A DNA stretch of 33,419 bases from Candidatus Acidiferrales bacterium (GTDB lineage Bacteria > Acidobacteriota > Terriglobia > Acidiferrales > UBA7541), in the NCBI GenBank assembly GCA_030037315.1, contig JASHRM010000189.1, forward strand, positions 1-33,419, in the 5' to 3' direction. The notes below the pieces were generated by a model that searched no databases, had not been told where the DNA came from, and saw only the letters and a program-made list of their open reading frames with translations. The first letter of the stretch is position 1; each line of letters opens with the position of its first letter. The translations under genes and the position numbers were made by a program. Positions 17,188 to 24,163 of this stretch are shown here, piece by piece.

Positions 17188-17847
17188 TTATTTCTGGCGG
17201 GATTGCAGCTGATGATAGCCGTGCTGCTTGCGTGCTTCGGCGAGACCCTTGCCGTTTCTGACTGCGTTGCGAATCGCGTCTTCGGCTTTAGCAATTTTTT
17301 CGGCGAGGGCGAGAATCTCGGCCTCGTGCCGGCGCGGGATCACGACCACTCCGTCCGAATCGCCGCGCAGAATGTCTCCCGGCGAAACTCGTGCGTCGCC
17401 GATCGTGATCGTGATTTCAGTAGCGTCGAGCTGGACGCGGTCTTTGCCCGTTCGCATGGAATAGCTCCGGCTATAAATCGGATAACCAAGTTCAAAGCAC
17501 AGCGCTGTATCGCGGCAAGCGCCATCAATCACAGTGCCCGCGATTCCACGACGATCTGCGATTTCCGTGAGAATGTCGCCCCAAACAGTTGCGTTCTCCC
17601 GACCGCCATTGTCGATGGCGATGACCGAACCTGGAGCGACATCATCGATAAATTCGCCAACTGTGCCCGCCGGTTTTCCTACGGGCCCGTAAAGAATCGT
17701 GAACGCCCGCCCAGTGAGACGAAAGCGATGATCGCGCGGCTTGATGTTCAGGCACTGACCGGCTATGCCGAGTTTATCGAGCGCGTCACTGATTGTCGCC
17801 GTATCGAGCTTGCTTGCGCTATCAACGGCGGCATCTTGGTTAGGCAA
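17188..17847 (-). CDS. RraA-family aldolase (HMG/CHA aldolase-like), copy 1
   Basis: A 219-residue RraA-fold protein. The active-site motif of 4-hydroxy-4-methyl-2-oxoglutarate/4-carboxy-4-hydroxy-2-oxoadipate aldolases is intact: WGDILTEIADRRGIAGTVIDGACRD, in which the Arg-Asp pair binds substrate and metal. The C-terminal PGDILRGDSDGVVVIPR is also canonical. These Mg-dependent enzymes split 4-carboxy-4-hydroxy-2-oxoadipate into pyruvate and oxaloacetate (the LigK step). Translation starts at TTG (17847) with AGAGGTGA 7 nt upstream; this site overlaps the stop of the second RraA gene 6 nt away, so coupling is likely. It is the last gene of the ligJ operon. An RNase E regulator role is unlikely in this context. 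Confidence 0.85.
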   Translation of the reverse strand: MPNQDAAVDSASKLDTATISDALDKLGIAGQCLNIKPRDHRFRLTGRAFTILYGPVGKPAGTVGEFIDDVAPGSVIAIDNGGRENATVWGDILTEIADRRGIAGTVIDGACRDTALCFELGYPIYSRSYSMRTGKDRVQLDATEITITIGDARVSPGDILRGDSDGVVVIPRRHEAEILALAEKIAKAEDAIRNAVRNGKGLAEARKQHGYHQLQSRQK

Positions 17848-17853
17848 CTGGCG

Positions 17854-18522
17854 TCACCTCTTCAGCATGTCTTCGTAGTTCGCGCCCATGACTTCGGAAA
17901 TCGGCCGGCCGCGACGAAGGTCTTCCGCCATAGCTGCCTCACGCGCGACGATTTGCTCGGCAGTCGACAAGACTCTTTCGATGTTTGCTCCGGCAATGAA
18001 AACCACACCGCTCCCGTCGGCAATGGCGTAATCGCCAGGATTCACCTGAACGTTACCGATCGTTACCGGGCCGCCGGTTGCGAGTTCAACGATGCGGCCG
18101 CGCGCCGTAAACGTGGTGGTCGCACTTGCAAACACGGGGAAATCAAGCTGCCGCGCTTCGTCGATATCGCGCACCGGACCATCCGCGATGACTCCGGCGA
18201 CTTTGCGGAGCTTTGCGCCCAGCGTGAGAATTCCACCCCAGCTTGCCGCATTTACGCCGCTGTGTTGTTCGATCACGATGATGTCGCCAGGCTGGGCGGC
18301 TTCGATCGCAGTGGTGCTCACATGGCGCGGTTTTCCCGGTGGCGGCTGACCGACTCCCAACTTGACGGTTAGGACGCGGCCGGCGATGCGGCCAGAGCCG
18401 GATAGCCGCGCAAAACCTGCCACTGCCCCCGACAGACGCAGTTTATCGAGGGCGTCCGAAACGGCACAGGCATCGGCGCGCTTCAACCGCTCGACGAAAT
18501 CGTTTGATGAACCCGCGTTCAT
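17854..18522 (-). CDS. RraA-family aldolase-like protein, copy 2
   Basis: The 222-residue product begins at ATG 18522 (MNAGSSNDFVERL); the frame is open further upstream but that part overlaps the dioxygenase gene and has no family similarity. It keeps the active-site block ASWGGILTLGAKLRKVAGVI followed by ADGPVRD with the Arg-Asp pair. The later motif, DxDGVVxIP in active homologs, is changed to ADGSGVVFIAG. It is clearly paralogous to the neighbouring copy (both start with SDALDKL blocks) but only distantly similar. It lies 19 nt after the dioxygenase stop and has no good Shine-Dalgarno. The two may have different substrates or form a mixed oligomer. Confidence 0.82.
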   Translation of the reverse strand: MNAGSSNDFVERLKRADACAVSDALDKLRLSGAVAGFARLSGSGRIAGRVLTVKLGVGQPPPGKPRHVSTTAIEAAQPGDIIVIEQHSGVNAASWGGILTLGAKLRKVAGVIADGPVRDIDEARQLDFPVFASATTTFTARGRIVELATGGPVTIGNVQVNPGDYAIADGSGVVFIAGANIERVLSTAEQIVAREAAMAEDLRRGRPISEVMGANYEDMLKR

Positions 18523-18541
18523 TGATTGCTTTTTTCGAATT

Positions 18542-19549
18542 TCACTGCCAATAGACGAAGCCCATCGCGCTGCCTGTGCCAGCTTCCGTGCGATAGCATG
18601 CCACGTAATCCACGAGGTGCATTTTCTTTTCGAGTGAATCCATCCCGACTGAAAGCGGCATCCAGTTCCGAATCTCGCAGGTGTTTCCAAGCAGGTAAGT
18701 TTCAGGTATCGCGGCGAGTGCTTCTTCGTCTCGCGTCTGCATGGCTTTCAGAATGCGCTGATCGAGTTCTTCGTCGATCACAAAGTGTGTTAAGCCGCCT
18801 GAGGCGAAAACGGCCACTTTCGCGTCTTCCTTCCAGCTCTCGATCGCTTTCATTAGCGCGCGTCCGAATTTGAGGCAGCGAGCAATTTTGGGGCGGTTGT
18901 TTGGAATGCCAGCGTTCAAGAACATCGGAACAGTCGGCGGAGGCGCGTCCCGCATGATTCTCCGGAAGAGAAAGCCAAACGCGTGGGGTATTCCGTGCTC
19001 GTGTCCATTTACCTTGGGTAGTTTGGACGATTCCGAGACATCGAATTCCTGATCGATCAACGATTTCACCAAATGAACGGCAAGATCCTGCTGGCCATCA
19101 TAAACGGCGCCTCCCGGCGGGCAGTGCCCGATTTCTGCGATGGCAATTCCGGGAGGCATTTTGGCCTTGGCTTCCTCTGTCTCCGGGATGTTCTCGATTT
19201 TGCTTCCCGCAAAGACCAGGAACGCGGGCGTATTTTCGTCTGTGAAAAGCTCGCGCTGGTCGTTGCCGATGATGACGGTCACATCCGGTTTCACTTCCGC
19301 AAATTTCGCGGCTAGTTTATCGAGGGCGCTTTGACATGCGTCGTAACGTTTCTTGCGTTCTTCGGGTGTGATCGCTGACGCAAATCCAGGTTGGCGAGCG
19401 GCCAGCAATTTTGGAAAATCGTAAGCCTCGCCTCGGTAGAAGTGTCTTTGATTTTTGCGGTCGGCCTCGCCGCGAAGGTGCCACATATCGGGCGGAGTGG
19501 AGAGCATCGGCCCGTGCGATGAGCCGATCCCTAAAACGATCCTGGCCAT
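18542..19549 (-). CDS. LigB/DesZ-type extradiol ring-cleavage dioxygenase (class III)
   Basis: A 335-residue single-chain dioxygenase of the protocatechuate 4,5-dioxygenase/3-O-methylgallate dioxygenase family, which opens catechol-type rings using Fe(II). It starts MARIVLGIGSSHGPMLSTPP, with His12 matching the first iron ligand of LigB. NGHEHGIPHAFGF supplies the catalytic His (His185), and FASGGLTHFVIDEELD holds the carboxylate ligand region (Glu260/261). The position of the second His ligand in LigB (NDH) is Gln98 here (GNDQ). AGGAGG stands 7 nt before the ATG. The length is closer to DesZ (methylgallate) than to gallate dioxygenases of about 420 residues. Neighbouring ligJ and RraA genes support cleavage of gallate or methylgallate. 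Confidence 0.88.
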   Translation of the reverse strand: MARIVLGIGSSHGPMLSTPPDMWHLRGEADRKNQRHFYRGEAYDFPKLLAARQPGFASAITPEERKKRYDACQSALDKLAAKFAEVKPDVTVIIGNDQRELFTDENTPAFLVFAGSKIENIPETEEAKAKMPPGIAIAEIGHCPPGGAVYDGQQDLAVHLVKSLIDQEFDVSESSKLPKVNGHEHGIPHAFGFLFRRIMRDAPPPTVPMFLNAGIPNNRPKIARCLKFGRALMKAIESWKEDAKVAVFASGGLTHFVIDEELDQRILKAMQTRDEEALAAIPETYLLGNTCEIRNWMPLSVGMDSLEKKMHLVDYVACYRTEAGTGSAMGFVYWQ

Positions 19550-19586
19550 GATTCACCCTCCTGCCGGTCTTCTAACCCCGAGGCTT

Positions 19587-20693
19587 CTAGCCCCACACCG
19601 TCCGCGCGGCGTCCACAACCAGTTCAAGCTTGGCCCACTGCTGATCTTCTGTGATGAGATTGCCCTCCAGCGTCGAGGCGAATCCGCACTGAGGGCTCAA
19701 CCCCAAATTCTCAAGAGGGAGATATTTGCATGCCTCTCGGATTCGGGCGGCAATGGACTCGGCGGTTTCCAACTCGGGACGTTTGGAGCTGATCAGGCCT
19801 AAAACAGCGACCTTGTTTTTCGGAACGAAGCGCAATGGCTCGAAGGTTCCCGAACGGGCGTCATCATACTCCAGCAGAAACCGGTCGACCGCCAGCGTAC
19901 CGAACAACTTTTCCGCAATGGCGTCGTAACCGCCCTCGGCATACCAATGACTGCGGCTATTTCCGCGGCAAAGATGGATCGCAAGAGTGACTCCTGGCTT
20001 TCGGGCAGCTTCGAAGCACGCATTATCAGCACGTATTGATTCTTCGAGCCACGGCTCGGGCTCCATTTGCATTTCCGTCCGAATCCATTCGCGCCACTTC
20101 GGATCCATAAAATAGCTGTAGCGGGGCGCGTCGATCTGTACGTAACTCACGCCTTCCGCCGCCAAGCGCGCCACTTCTCTCTTAACGATGTCGACAACGT
20201 CCCACAGCATCGCCGAATAACTTGGATAAGCCCGTTCGGATTTGCCGCGCTTGTAGGAAATCGCCGGGAATTGCGTCGCGCTGGGCAAAGTGATTTTGAT
20301 AGGGCCCGGGCTGTGCTGCTTGAGGAAGGGAAGCTCATGGCCCGTTAGCGGTTTGACGGCGTGAATTTTTTCGACGACCACGCCAGCCACTCGGCCACGG
20401 CCCAGCGTCGATCCGCCGGCGGCTGCCGTATTCCAACTGCGCGGAACGCCGTCACCAAAATCGAAACCGCGAACCGCGTCGGTGAAATCGCCCATGAAGT
20501 TCGAGCGGCGGAATTCGCCGTCCGTGAAAATTTCGAAGCCCAGCTCTTTTTGTTTTGCAAGCACTCGCAGGATGGATTTGTCTTCGACTTCCCGAAGCCG
20601 GGCTGGATCGGGTGGATCGGCGCGCCGGGCTTCAAGAAGCTCCAGTGGGCGCAAAAAACTGCCAACCTGATCGGCTCGAAATCGTACGGACAT
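19587..20693 (-). CDS. MetE C-terminal-like zinc methyltransferase
   Basis: A 368-residue TIM-barrel protein similar to the catalytic half of cobalamin-independent methionine synthase (YxjG/YxjH-like; UROD/MetE superfamily). All four zinc ligands are present: His240 and Cys242 in IHLCRGN, Glu275 in LLEYDDARSG and Cys336 in LSPQCGFAS. EVEDKSILRVLAKQKE and FEIFTDGEFRR near the N-terminus match the family. The N-terminal half of true MetE is absent. It would transfer a methyl group to a zinc-bound thiol. The ATG lies 11 nt after the ligJ stop and the dioxygenase gene follows 37 nt after its own stop. Inside an aromatic-cleavage operon a role in removing or recycling methoxyl-derived methyl groups is possible (inference). 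Confidence 0.85.
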   Translation of the reverse strand: MSVRFRADQVGSFLRPLELLEARRADPPDPARLREVEDKSILRVLAKQKELGFEIFTDGEFRRSNFMGDFTDAVRGFDFGDGVPRSWNTAAAGGSTLGRGRVAGVVVEKIHAVKPLTGHELPFLKQHSPGPIKITLPSATQFPAISYKRGKSERAYPSYSAMLWDVVDIVKREVARLAAEGVSYVQIDAPRYSYFMDPKWREWIRTEMQMEPEPWLEESIRADNACFEAARKPGVTLAIHLCRGNSRSHWYAEGGYDAIAEKLFGTLAVDRFLLEYDDARSGTFEPLRFVPKNKVAVLGLISSKRPELETAESIAARIREACKYLPLENLGLSPQCGFASTLEGNLITEDQQWAKLELVVDAARTVWG

Positions 20694-20704
20694 CTGAGTT
20701 CTCT

Positions 20705-21730
20705 CTAAGCGGCTGTTTTCGCGCCGACGTCGAGTCGGAAAAGTTTCTTGGCGTTGTCTTCGAAGATCAGCTTCTTATCGGCCGCGCTCAGCCAATCGAA
20801 GCCATCGATGTAAACTCTCACGTCATCCATCCATTTTCCTGTCTTTGGATCCTTGGCAGTGCCTACTCCTGGCCGTTCAGTGCCAAAAACGCAGCGATCT
20901 GCGCCAACGGTCTTGATTAGAAGTTCGCATGCGAGGGGGGTGTATAGTACCGTGTCGAAATAAAGTTTTCGCAAGTTATCGATGAAATTGACTGCGCCGC
21001 GGCGCAGCGACGGCGCGATGAATCTTCCCGCGTGATACGGCACGGCGCCGCCGCCATGCGAGCAAACCATCTTCAGTTTTGGAAAGTCCTGGAACACACG
21101 CGACCCCGCGAGCGAAATCACGGAGATTGTTTCTTCATTGATGAAATGCGTTGAATAGCTGTGGCGCGACGAGCGGCAGCCGGCGCCGTGGATGTATCCG
21201 GGAACGTCCAACTCAACCAGCTTCTGGTACAAAGGATACCAAAACTCATCGCCCATGCCCGGCGTATCGTAGTTCGATGCTTCGCTGGGATCGGGATTAA
21301 TCAAGCAGCCGACGAAGCCGAATTCCCTCACGCAACGCTCGAGTTCAGCGATGCAGTCTTTTGGACTGATACCGGGCGTCTGGGGAAGACCGCAAACGCC
21401 TCGAAAGACATCGGGAAAAAGCCGGCACTGCTGCGCGACCAGATTGTTGCACTCCTCGATGAACCACTGAGAAACCTTGGCCGGTTTCTCCGCGTGCATC
21501 ATTTGAAACGGGCGGGGCGAAAGCAACTGCAGATCGGTGCCGACTTCCTTCAGAAGATCCAAATGAGACTTGCCGGTGCCGAACGTTGGCTGCCTGAGAA
21601 ACGCAACCATTTCGTCGTCGCTTACTTCGACTTTTCCACGCCCGTGTGAGCCACGATGAGAGACGATGTTCGCTTTATACACATACAGCGAGTCTGGTGC
21701 GGTGAGATGTCCATGAACGTCGATTACCAT
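20705..21730 (-). CDS. ligJ: 4-oxalomesaconate hydratase
   Basis: A 341-residue amidohydrolase-superfamily enzyme that hydrates 4-oxalomesaconate to 4-carboxy-4-hydroxy-2-oxoadipate. The match to Sphingobium LigJ is visible throughout: VIDVHGHLTAP (His6, His8), SHRGSHGRGKVEV, LQLLSPRPFQMMHAEKPAKV, LINPDP, IHGAG (His181), HFINEETIS, CSHGGGAVPYHAGRF (His225), LYFDTVLYT and FGTERPGVG (Glu285, equivalent to the catalytic Glu of LigJ). The length is normal. The ATG has a G-rich site (GGGGGGAG) with very short spacing. It is the first gene of the five-gene minus-strand operon and divergent from the MFS transporter. Confidence 0.92.
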   Translation of the reverse strand: MVIDVHGHLTAPDSLYVYKANIVSHRGSHGRGKVEVSDDEMVAFLRQPTFGTGKSHLDLLKEVGTDLQLLSPRPFQMMHAEKPAKVSQWFIEECNNLVAQQCRLFPDVFRGVCGLPQTPGISPKDCIAELERCVREFGFVGCLINPDPSEASNYDTPGMGDEFWYPLYQKLVELDVPGYIHGAGCRSSRHSYSTHFINEETISVISLAGSRVFQDFPKLKMVCSHGGGAVPYHAGRFIAPSLRRGAVNFIDNLRKLYFDTVLYTPLACELLIKTVGADRCVFGTERPGVGTAKDPKTGKWMDDVRVYIDGFDWLSAADKKLIFEDNAKKLFRLDVGAKTAA

Positions 21731-21765
21731 GCTCCCCCCAATTCAAAACGCACGGCGCTACGCCT

Positions 21766-21794
21766 GTCTTATCTCCTGCAACCTCGCATGTCAA
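21766..21794 (-). promoter_or_regulatory. promoter of the ligJ operon
   Basis: TTGACA (21789-21794, full consensus) and TAAGAC (21766-21771, 3/6) on the minus strand are separated by 17 nt and lie about 40 nt upstream of the ligJ ATG. The weak -10 suggests dependence on an activator. Confidence 0.5.
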
Positions 21795-21852
21795 CCGAAT
21801 CGAAATCGAGGCAGCTTCCAACCGAGATTCCGAGTGCCGGATGCGTAGGATG

Positions 21853-21881
21853 TTGACACACATGCGGGTAAGGCATAGGCT
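21853..21881 (+). promoter_or_regulatory. promoter of the MFS transporter
   Basis: TTGACA (21853-21858, full consensus) and TAGGCT (21876-21881, 3/6) are separated by 17 nt and lie 35 nt before the ATG at 21917. The architecture mirrors the divergent ligJ promoter. Confidence 0.5.
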
Positions 21882-21916
21882 CCGGGGAATTTTGACGCGC
21901 CAGCCGAAAGGAAACG

Positions 21917-23224
21917 ATGTCTGCGCTCGACCCAACCGCAGAGAAGGTGCAGGGCGTGATGTCGAAGCCCGGCGCAGCGGCGTATTACGGCCTGGCGATT
22001 TTGACCGTGATCTACTCGCTGAACTTTCTGGATCGTACGGTTATCAACATCCTGATCGATCCGATCAAGCAGACCTACCACCTTTCCGACAAGGTGATGG
22101 GTTTCATCTCCGGCTTTGGCTTCGTGATCATGTACTCGATCCTGGCCGCGCCGGTGGCTCGATGGGCCGATCGCGGAAATCGCCGAAACCTCATTACTTG
22201 GGGACTGGTGATCTGGAGCGGGATGACGGCTCTCGGAGGGGTCGCGCGGAACGCGGTTCAACTGACCCTTTCGCGTTTCGGAGTAGGCGTTGGCGAAGCT
22301 GCGGGCACAGCGCCTTCGACTTCGATGATCTCCGATTTTTTTCCTGGAGATCGAAGGTCAACAGCAATGGCCATGTATCAGCTTGGACCTGTGATCGGCG
22401 GCTCTTTGGGAGCGTTCATCGGCGGCTGGGTGAACCATCACTACGGATGGCACGACGCGTTCCTTGTCGCCGGCGCGCCAGGCCTGCTGGTGGCGCTGAT
22501 TCTGCGATTCACCGTCAGAGAACCTCTGCGGGGCAGTTCTGAACGCACGGTGGTGAATACAAGCCAACAGAAATTTTTCAAGACGCTGCGTTTCATATGG
22601 CAGCAGCGGTGTTACATGGTCGTGCTGTTTGGATTTTGCTTCACCACGTTCACCCAATTCGGAGTTGGCACATGGGCCGCACCGTTCTTGGGCAGAATCC
22701 ATCACCTGAACACCGCACAGATCGGGACCTACATCGGAACCATCCGCGCAGCGGCAGGTTTCTCCGGCACTTTGGCGGGCGGATACCTTTCGGATTGGGC
22801 CGGACGCCGTGACATTCGCTGGAAAATTTACGTATCGGGCATTTGCTCGGTGCTTGCGTGCCCCGGCGTGTTGCTTTTTGTTTTTTCACATAGCCTTCTC
22901 TGGTGCCTCGTGGGCTTTACGATTGTCTCTGCCGCGTCGCCTGTACACGTGGGACCGATTGTCGCCGTCTCGCATTCGGTCGTGCGAGTCGGCATGCGCG
23001 CATTCGCCACTTCGATTCTCTACTTGATTTCCGAGTTAATAGGGCTGGGATTGGGTCCACTTCTAATTGGAGTATTTAACGACCACTACGCGCACCGGCT
23101 CGGTGTTGGTGTGATTCGGTATTCGATGGCCACGGCTGCGCTTACGACACTGTTTGGAGGACTTTTGTTTTGCTTGGCCGCACAGTTTCTGCGTAGGGAC
23201 ATGGAGCGCGCCGCCTCAGAATAA
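21917..23224 (+). CDS. MFS transporter (spinster-like), probable aromatic acid uptake
   Basis: A 435-residue major facilitator with about 12 helices. Helix 1 contains YSLNFLDRTVINILIDPIK and loop 2-3 has the Asp-Arg-Gly motif (RWADRGNRR). The helix 4-5 region reads RFGVGVGEAAGTAPSTSMI, and FFPGDRRSTAMAMYQLG is typical of the spinster-like/anion-cation symporter groups. AAAGGAAACG gives a good ribosome site before the ATG. It is divergent from ligJ, so import of the aromatic substrate of that operon is a reasonable inference; the sequence alone does not fix the substrate. The downstream amidohydrolase gene begins 87 nt after the stop. Confidence 0.9.
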   Translation: MSALDPTAEKVQGVMSKPGAAAYYGLAILTVIYSLNFLDRTVINILIDPIKQTYHLSDKVMGFISGFGFVIMYSILAAPVARWADRGNRRNLITWGLVIWSGMTALGGVARNAVQLTLSRFGVGVGEAAGTAPSTSMISDFFPGDRRSTAMAMYQLGPVIGGSLGAFIGGWVNHHYGWHDAFLVAGAPGLLVALILRFTVREPLRGSSERTVVNTSQQKFFKTLRFIWQQRCYMVVLFGFCFTTFTQFGVGTWAAPFLGRIHHLNTAQIGTYIGTIRAAAGFSGTLAGGYLSDWAGRRDIRWKIYVSGICSVLACPGVLLFVFSHSLLWCLVGFTIVSAASPVHVGPIVAVSHSVVRVGMRAFATSILYLISELIGLGLGPLLIGVFNDHYAHRLGVGVIRYSMATAALTTLFGGLLFCLAAQFLRRDMERAASE

Positions 23225-23311
23225 ATTTTCGAATCAAATTTCTTCCCCCCGCGTAAATTGATCGATTCGCGGGCCGCGTGCTAGATTCTCAGCGTTCTCG
23301 GAGGAATCGCA

Positions 23312-24163
23312 TTGCTTAAAGCTATCGATATGCACGCCCATATCTTGACGGGTGATCGGGCCAAGCAAGGGTGGGGGCACGCGGCTAAGGCAGGATTGCC
23401 AATTAGCACCGGCAAATACGGCACGACTCCTGACGAAATGGCTGTCATGTATCAGGGGTTGGACATGATGGCCGTCATTTTCGATGTGGATGGAGAAACG
23501 CGCAGCGGCTTGAAAATTGACAACGCTGAAACCGCGGGCTGGATGAAGAAATATCCGAAGACTTTCATCGGATTCGGAAGCGTTGATCCATGGAAGGGGA
23601 AGATTGCCGTCAACGAGGTGCAACGCTGCGCGGACATGGGCCTTCGCGGAATGAAATTCCAGCAGGCGGCCCAGGGATTCAACCCAAATGAGGAGCGGTT
23701 TTTCCCCATCTACGAAGCGATGGTTCGTTTGAATCTGCCCGTGATTTTTCACACCGGCACGACTGCTGTTGCGGCGGGTTCTCCAGGAGGGAAGGGAATT
23801 ACGCTCGAATACTGCAAGCCGATTCCCTACATCGATAACTTGGCTGCGTGGTTTCCCGAGCTGCGCATCATCATGGCGCATCCTTCGTGGCCGTGGCACG
23901 ACGACCAGTTGGCTGTGCTTCGCCACAAAGGGAACACCTACATGGATCTTTCAGGCTGGGCGCCGAAATATTTTCCGGCTTCGACGGTCCACAACATCAA
24001 TACGCTCGTGCAGGACAAAGCATTCTTCGGCACGGATTTCCCGATGATGACGCCAGAACGCTGGCTAAGTGAATTCGCGGAGCTTCCTCTGAAGGATACG
24101 GTGAGGCCAAAAATCCTGCTTCACAACGCCGCTAAGTTTCTGGGAATCGAAATTCCATCGTGA
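23312..24163 (+). CDS. amidohydrolase-2 family protein (COG2159 type)
   Basis: A 283-residue TIM-barrel metal-dependent hydrolase. IDMHAH (His8, His10) is the HxH metal motif, VIFHTGTTA supplies the third His, IIMAHPSWPWHDD the fourth and FFGTDFPMMTPERW the Asp. Relatives include LigW-type decarboxylases and 4-hydroxyphenyl-beta-ketoacyl-CoA hydrolases of lignin-monomer pathways; the GTTAVAAGSPGGKG insert resembles the latter. It starts at TTG (23312), chosen because GGAGGA lies 7 nt upstream; the next ATG is codon 7. It follows the MFS gene on the same strand. A function in aromatic side-chain processing is inferred from context. It is not a duplicate of LigJ. Confidence 0.85.
   Translation: MLKAIDMHAHILTGDRAKQGWGHAAKAGLPISTGKYGTTPDEMAVMYQGLDMMAVIFDVDGETRSGLKIDNAETAGWMKKYPKTFIGFGSVDPWKGKIAVNEVQRCADMGLRGMKFQQAAQGFNPNEERFFPIYEAMVRLNLPVIFHTGTTAVAAGSPGGKGITLEYCKPIPYIDNLAAWFPELRIIMAHPSWPWHDDQLAVLRHKGNTYMDLSGWAPKYFPASTVHNINTLVQDKAFFGTDFPMMTPERWLSEFAELPLKDTVRPKILLHNAAKFLGIEIPS

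Follow-up and report, generated by a model that had tools for sequence, protein, structure and literature searches.

A LigZ-LigY-type operon with an unusual MetE-like member in a Candidatus Acidiferrales bacterium, most likely serving lignin biphenyls of the dehydrodivanillate type

In Sphingobium (Parasphingobium) lignivorans SYK-6, LigX, LigZ and LigY convert dehydrodivanillate (DDVA), a 5-5 lignin biphenyl, to 5-carboxyvanillate and 4-carboxy-2-hydroxypenta-2,4-dienoate (CHPD) (PMC6874591), and the DDVA cluster of this strain includes ligZ (SLG_07720), ligY (SLG_07750), ligXa (SLG_07770) and ligW (SLG_07850) (PMC12997858). Here, we describe a related locus in a stretch of 33,419 nucleotides from a Candidatus Acidiferrales bacterium (contig JASHRM010000189.1 of assembly GCA_030037315.1, hereafter the window), in which five minus-strand genes form one operon, ligY-metE-ligZ-rraA-rraA, separated by only 11, 37, 19 and 6 bases. 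As in SYK-6, ligZ is followed by two rraA genes with ligY beside them (47-62% identity), relatives of LigXa, LigW and LigM are encoded in the genome, and a MetE-like gene is present, which in SYK-6 adjoins ligW (37% identity). Unlike in SYK-6, ligY comes first and is separated from ligZ by the MetE-like gene, the LigXa and LigW relatives are found on other contigs (C45 and C308), and the window LigZ belongs to a sister subclade; moreover, the fetched SYK-6 flank holds no match to the transporter or the second amidohydrolase that neighbour the operon. An earlier note, made from the sequence alone, had held the combination to be unlike the Sphingobium lig clusters, which is true of the MetE-like gene, whereas the ligZ-rraA-rraA order with ligY beside it is that of the SYK-6 DDVA cluster.

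Two further groups of loci are instructive for comparison. Those of Pigmentiphaga and Pandoraea (L086, L087, L099, L100 and L129; also L085 and L106) hold some of the closest named relatives of the window LigZ (56-60%) and share with the window both RraA types, a LigY of 59-61% and LigXa relatives, but they have a third RraA, and their fetched flanks showed no match to the MetE-like protein. The gallate and protocatechuate 4,5-cleavage clusters (desB, ligAB, ligJ, ligK) draw on the same enzyme superfamilies; however, the window proteins score below the cut-offs of the corresponding models, the second enzyme is a different one, and the residue at the presumed iron site of the dioxygenase differs. 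Within this context, the operon probably constitutes the ring-opening part of a DDVA-type pathway. The earlier note had seen here a meta-cleavage island for gallate or 3-O-methylgallate; of that description we retain a meta-cleavage operon for aromatic acids of the lignin type, encoding an extradiol dioxygenase of class III together with an amidohydrolase and members of the aldolase family, but not the proposed substrate.

The first gene of the operon (20705 to 21730, minus strand), which had been labelled ligJ, encodes a protein of the amidohydrolase superfamily (Amidohydro_2). Compared with solved structures, this protein scores 405 bits with LigY (5vn5) and 234 bits with LigJ (2gwg). It is 54.8% identical to LigY of SYK-6 and 52.8% identical to a second LigY-like protein of that strain, compared with 37.0% for the SYK-6 protein at L216, which is presumed to be LigJ from the LigB-type gene that adjoins it. 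His6, His8, His179, His223 and Glu282 (LigY numbering), presumably the metal and active-site residues of the LigY family, are invariant in all six aligned proteins, and the window protein has no NCBIfam match. Judged by these comparisons, the gene is a predicted C-C hydrolase gene of the LigY type; since its nearest characterised relative is LigY, the identity as LigJ (4-oxalomesaconate hydratase) was rejected.

The dioxygenase gene (18542 to 19549, minus strand) leads to the same system. The nearest characterised relative found for its product is SYK-6 LigZ, with 47.2% identity over 337 positions of a full-length alignment, whereas the gallate dioxygenase model NF009904 gives 51.9 bits, below its curated cut-off of 412. 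Position 98, which we take from the LigAB structures to be the second iron ligand, is glutamine in all 83 LigZ-type rows (the window protein and 82 relatives) and histidine in all 18 rows of other LigB-type proteins, one of which is itself a SYK-6 protein. The altered residue runs throughout the LigZ-type rows and possibly reflects an altered metal site in the whole enzyme family. An AlphaFold2 model of the window protein (mean pLDDT 94.5) has the class III extradiol fold. By sequence, therefore, the protein is assigned to the LigZ type and not to the gallate dioxygenases.

The two genes that follow encode RraA-like proteins, RraA-b (17854 to 18522, minus strand; PF03737, 3e-32; 52.3% identical to the first RraA after SYK-6 ligZ) and RraA-a (17188 to 17847, minus strand, with a TTG start; PF03737, 2.1e-35; 61.8% identical to the second SYK-6 RraA). 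Class II aldolases of the RraA fold presumably carry one of two motif forms, D-X20-R-D or G-X20-R-D-X2-E/D, and because RraA-a has the former and RraA-b the latter (with Glu at the last position), the module pairs one of each type. Most homologs are described as bearing one of two motifs required for metal binding and catalysis (PMC5065237). Both motifs are well conserved: in row sets that contain additional copies of the window sequence, D-X20-R-D is found in all 48 rows of RraA-a, and G-X20-R-D in all 62 rows of RraA-b, followed two residues on by Glu in 59, Gln in two and Asp in one. The proteins score 81.5 and 75.8 bits with the LigK/PcmE aldolase model TIGR02798, for which the cut-off is 304.5, so the LigK-type aldolase of the earlier note finds no support. 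The pyruvate and oxaloacetate that it expected from gallate are likewise unsupported.

It should be noted that CHPD is the enol of 4-methylene-2-oxoglutarate and that 4-hydroxy-4-methyl-2-oxoglutarate (HMG) aldolase is an RraA-family protein. The route proposed for CHPD is hydration followed by cleavage by HMG aldolase, and the SYK-6 enzyme of the hydration step is listed as not identified in Table 2 of the same source (PMC12673573). As a guess, RraA-a would be the aldolase and RraA-b a candidate CHPD hydratase, but RraA-b could equally be a second aldolase.

Combined with genes elsewhere in the genome, the operon would complete a path from DDVA to protocatechuate and pyruvate. A LigXa-like Rieske enzyme encoded on another contig would take off one methyl group, LigZ would cleave the resulting catechol ring beside the aryl bond, and LigY would hydrolyse the ring-opened product to 5-carboxyvanillate and CHPD, the latter a C6 dienoate. 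Addition of water to CHPD, possibly by RraA-b, would yield HMG, which an RraA-type aldolase (RraA-a) would split into two pyruvates, whereas carboxyvanillate would be decarboxylated to vanillate by LigW, and vanillate converted by LigM to protocatechuate and methyl-tetrahydrofolate. The methyl groups would most likely be disposed of as methionine by the MetE-like enzyme.

Relatives of the three additional enzymes are indeed present in the genome, which is 82.6% complete in 339 contigs: one of the O-demethylase LigXa (62%; contig C45, 5693-6946 of G000, the genome of the window), one of the 5-carboxyvanillate decarboxylase LigW (60% over 314 of 336 residues; G000, C308, 9036-9986; the SYK-6 LigW query was identified by its 752 bits to PDB 4icm), and LigM (782.6 bits against a curated cut-off of 580). 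Within the genus, LigZ at 71% or more identity to the window protein occurs in 10 of 20 genomes, including that of the window. LigM accompanies it in all ten and is found in two of the ten other genomes (Fisher p 0.0007). For LigW at 57% or more, the corresponding counts are nine and two (p 0.005), and for LigXa at 59% or more, six and one (p 0.057). These statistics come from related draft genomes, with cut-offs picked after viewing the lists, and include a few matches that are partial or contain a stop.

The arrangement itself recurs. The order ligY-metE-ligZ is found in all seven congeners whose ligY and ligZ share a contig (L060, L061, L063, L065, L066, L067 and L069) and is therefore not a matter of chance; both rraA genes come next in five of them, with only RraA-b found in L067 and the contig ending after ligZ in L069. 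Loci from other bacteria, including SYK-6, were fetched with a LigY alignment as bait, and the best 80 of at least 577 confirmed candidates were compared; 31 of these 80 are shorter than 20 kb, so counts of genes in the fetched flanks are lower bounds. A LigZ-type gene occurs in at least 56 of the 80 (79 from Pseudomonadota and one from Myxococcota), RraA-a in at least 36, RraA-b in at least 50, both RraA types in at least 35, and LigZ with both in at least 29. Thus, the core genes do not rarely co-occur; rare co-occurrence is what the earlier note had named as a refutation of its island. Of six plasmid loci read, four (from Polymorphobacter, Aminobacter, Rhodococcus and Bradyrhizobium) have LigY and LigZ alongside both RraA types. 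In a sample of 396 genomes of the phylum, any match to the dioxygenase was found in 11, including the genome of the window, and a close one (45-51%) in four besides it. The family's other genera, covered by 29 genomes, gave no close match. One same-class genome (G187, locus L038) has the four core genes together with transporter genes and no MetE. As a further observation, two congeners (G408, locus L070, and G412, locus L071) possess an additional LigZ-type gene (48-49%), around which no LigY or RraA matches were seen in the 12-15 kb read.

Several points nevertheless weigh against DDVA as the substrate. Genes for LigX, LigW and LigM were not found in the island. Among the ten LigZ-bearing genomes of the genus, which are drafts, LigXa was not found in four; G412, at 96% completeness, shows LigZ without LigXa, and its LigW match reaches only 50-51%, whereas the draft G413 has LigXa, LigW and LigM but no LigZ. 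Two of the six plasmid loci, those of Acidovorax and Cupriavidus, have LigY and LigZ types without RraA matches, and we know of no precedent for an RraA protein acting as a hydratase. The nearest solved structures of the dioxygenase by fold are the gallate dioxygenase DesB and LigAB, a match that is not decisive because no LigZ structure was among those shown. In a quick tree, in which long branches were flagged, the window LigZ lies outside the SYK-6 LigZ subclade in a sister group, together with Pigmentiphaga and Pandoraea proteins (SH-aLRT 98-99), a placement that leaves DDVA a likely rather than a proven substrate. Furthermore, SYK-6 has a second pair of LigY- and LigZ-like proteins (52.8% and about 47% identical to the window proteins), and thus the family may serve more than one substrate. 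In this second pair (L220, about 2.099 Mb), the LigZ-like gene directly follows the LigY-like gene.

These considerations give some room, though clearly the smaller share, to the alternative that the module opens another 5-substituted protocatechuate by the same chemistry, with LigY releasing a different acid. Apart from the sister-group position, such a reading would agree with the fact that the closest named relatives of the window LigZ are, to our knowledge, uncharacterised, with the large number of LigY-family candidates, and with the finding that just 24 of the 80 LigY loci have, in their fetched flanks, a LigXa relative of at least 45%. The Rhodococcus and Bradyrhizobium plasmid modules (L052 and L053) likewise have no LigXa match; RidA-family genes adjoin their LigY-like gene, and these loci may be devoted to an amino-substituted or other substrate. 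Against a different substrate stand the LigXa, LigW and LigM relatives in the window's own genome and their co-occurrence with LigZ across the genus. Within the LigZ group of the window, a LigXa relative of 58-66% is present in nine of ten proteobacterial loci, the tenth (L081) having only a match of 35-36%. In three Pandoraea loci (L099, L100 and L129), a single cluster combines two distinct dioxygenases of the LigZ type with a pair of Rieske genes, of which one is close to LigXa (about 62%) and the other distant (about 33%).

The most puzzling member of the operon is the gene between ligY and ligZ (19587 to 20693, minus strand), which encodes a MetE-like single-domain methyltransferase of the PRK06520 kind (PF01717, 1e-14; 262.3 bits with NF005085, the PRK06520 subfamily model, below the cut-off of 313). 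The best match by both sequence and fold is 1ypx, and the methionine-synthase fold is kept. His240, Cys242, Glu275 and Cys336, which we take to be the zinc ligands of MetE, are invariant in all 25 aligned rows. The earlier note was right to regard such a gene in the middle of the cluster as unusual. A MetE-like gene of 33% or more was found in the fetched flanks of just 3 of the 80 LigY loci. Five genomes of the genus (G000, G396, G400, G404 and G408) have a relative of the MetE-like protein (62-68%) at a distance of 0.3 to 5.5 kb from LigM. These relatives fall in a clade of eight (support 98/97), the other three members of which are not on a LigM contig. In the congeners G399, G410 and G414, which show no such LigM or LigZ matches, a relative of 69-70% adjoins a Rieske gene, which in G399 is of the VanA type with pcaHG nearby; in G456, of the same class, a relative of 59% and a LigZ-type gene are about 2 kb apart. 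The theme common to these contexts is methoxylated aromatics.

Other MetE-like genes were encountered in similar company. The one adjoining ligW in SYK-6 (L224, 328-1443) scores 459.8 bits with NF005085, above the cut-off, and in a gammaproteobacterial metagenome-assembled genome, a relative of this SYK-6 gene (56%) begins immediately behind ligY and runs to the contig end (L079, 3245-3845). The surroundings of LigM in L183, L184, L188 and L197 include two MetE-like genes, the second of about 333 residues, and a conserved protein of about 480 residues, the L184 copy of which has no Pfam or NCBIfam match; in L188, a methylenetetrahydrofolate reductase gene comes after these genes. Several genomes of the genus contain many MetE-like matches, with up to 12 matched stretches in G402, fragments counted.

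It is reasonable to assume that the MetE-like protein probably uses the methyl-tetrahydrofolate made by LigM and so serves methyl disposal. The cases that lack LigM fit methyl disposal poorly, and for this reason a second, unlikely idea was kept, namely that the protein is itself a new kind of aryl-methyl-ether O-demethylase, a cobalamin-free zinc enzyme that would transfer the methyl group of lignin-derived methoxyaromatics directly to a thiol or to folate and thereby, with DDVA-type substrates, bypass LigX. The constant position between ligY and ligZ in the congeners, the relatives near LigM and beside Rieske genes in the LigM-lacking genomes, the neighbour of ligW in SYK-6, and the LigZ-bearing genomes in which LigXa is missing would all accord with such an enzyme. 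On the other hand, the presumed zinc ligands and the fold are those of methionine synthase, the gene is rare among LigY loci, and no precedent is known to us; with a LigXa relative in the genome, the MetE-like protein as a needed LigX replacement was reduced to a minor alternative. If the idea were true, genomes of the genus would carry demethylase versions suited to each of the gene groups that harbour close relatives, namely LigZ-LigY, LigM and Rieske/PcaHG.

The reading in which the dioxygenase opens gallate or 3-O-methylgallate, LigJ hydrates the product and a LigK-type aldolase splits it is very improbable: although the superfamilies are the same, DesB is the nearest solved structure and the RraA proteins carry aldolase-type motifs, it was rejected on the grounds that the first gene matches LigY better than LigJ, that the gallate dioxygenase and LigK models score below their cut-offs and that Gln98 replaces histidine, and the genome moreover has other LigB-type genes on C265 (481.2 bits against the PRK13364 cut-off of 290) and C333, as well as a protein on C20 with 40.5% identity to the presumed LigJ of SYK-6.

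The surroundings of the operon were described correctly in the earlier note, as was the gene content overall: two RraA proteins, a LigB-type dioxygenase, a MetE-like protein and an Amidohydro_2 protein on the minus strand, and a transporter and a second Amidohydro_2 protein on the plus strand. Between the operon and the divergent transporter gene lie 186 bases (21731 to 21916), by position a probable promoter site; the promoter scan gave no sigma-70-like sites, and terminator-like sites numbered 10 against 9.3 expected by chance. The MFS transporter (21917 to 23224, plus strand; PF07690, 2.7e-45) is a candidate for aromatic-acid uptake, with a homolog of 70-79% near the operon in four of the seven congeners; two of the remaining three have contigs that break off less than 2 kb from ligY. 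The second Amidohydro_2 protein (23312 to 24163, plus strand; PF04909, 3.3e-46), whose best solved relative is 3irs, has a homolog of 86-89% in two of the seven congeners and none of 35% or more in the 80 LigY loci. Its identity as LigW was rejected, as it gives only 37.7 bits with 4inf and the 60% LigW relative lies elsewhere in the genome; no chain named LigI was among its eight solved relatives, the extent of the search for that identity.

Taken as a DDVA-type operon, the locus points to the biphenyl branch of lignin catabolism, known from SYK-6, in the lineage of the window, and it removes a gallate label that would send assays in the wrong direction. With glutamine at the presumed iron site, LigZ-type enzymes have a mark that should be helpful for annotating them. 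The presence of a MetE-like gene prompts the question of the fate of the methyl groups, and the recurring pair of RraA motif types with LigZ and LigY suggests a concrete candidate for the CHPD hydratase.

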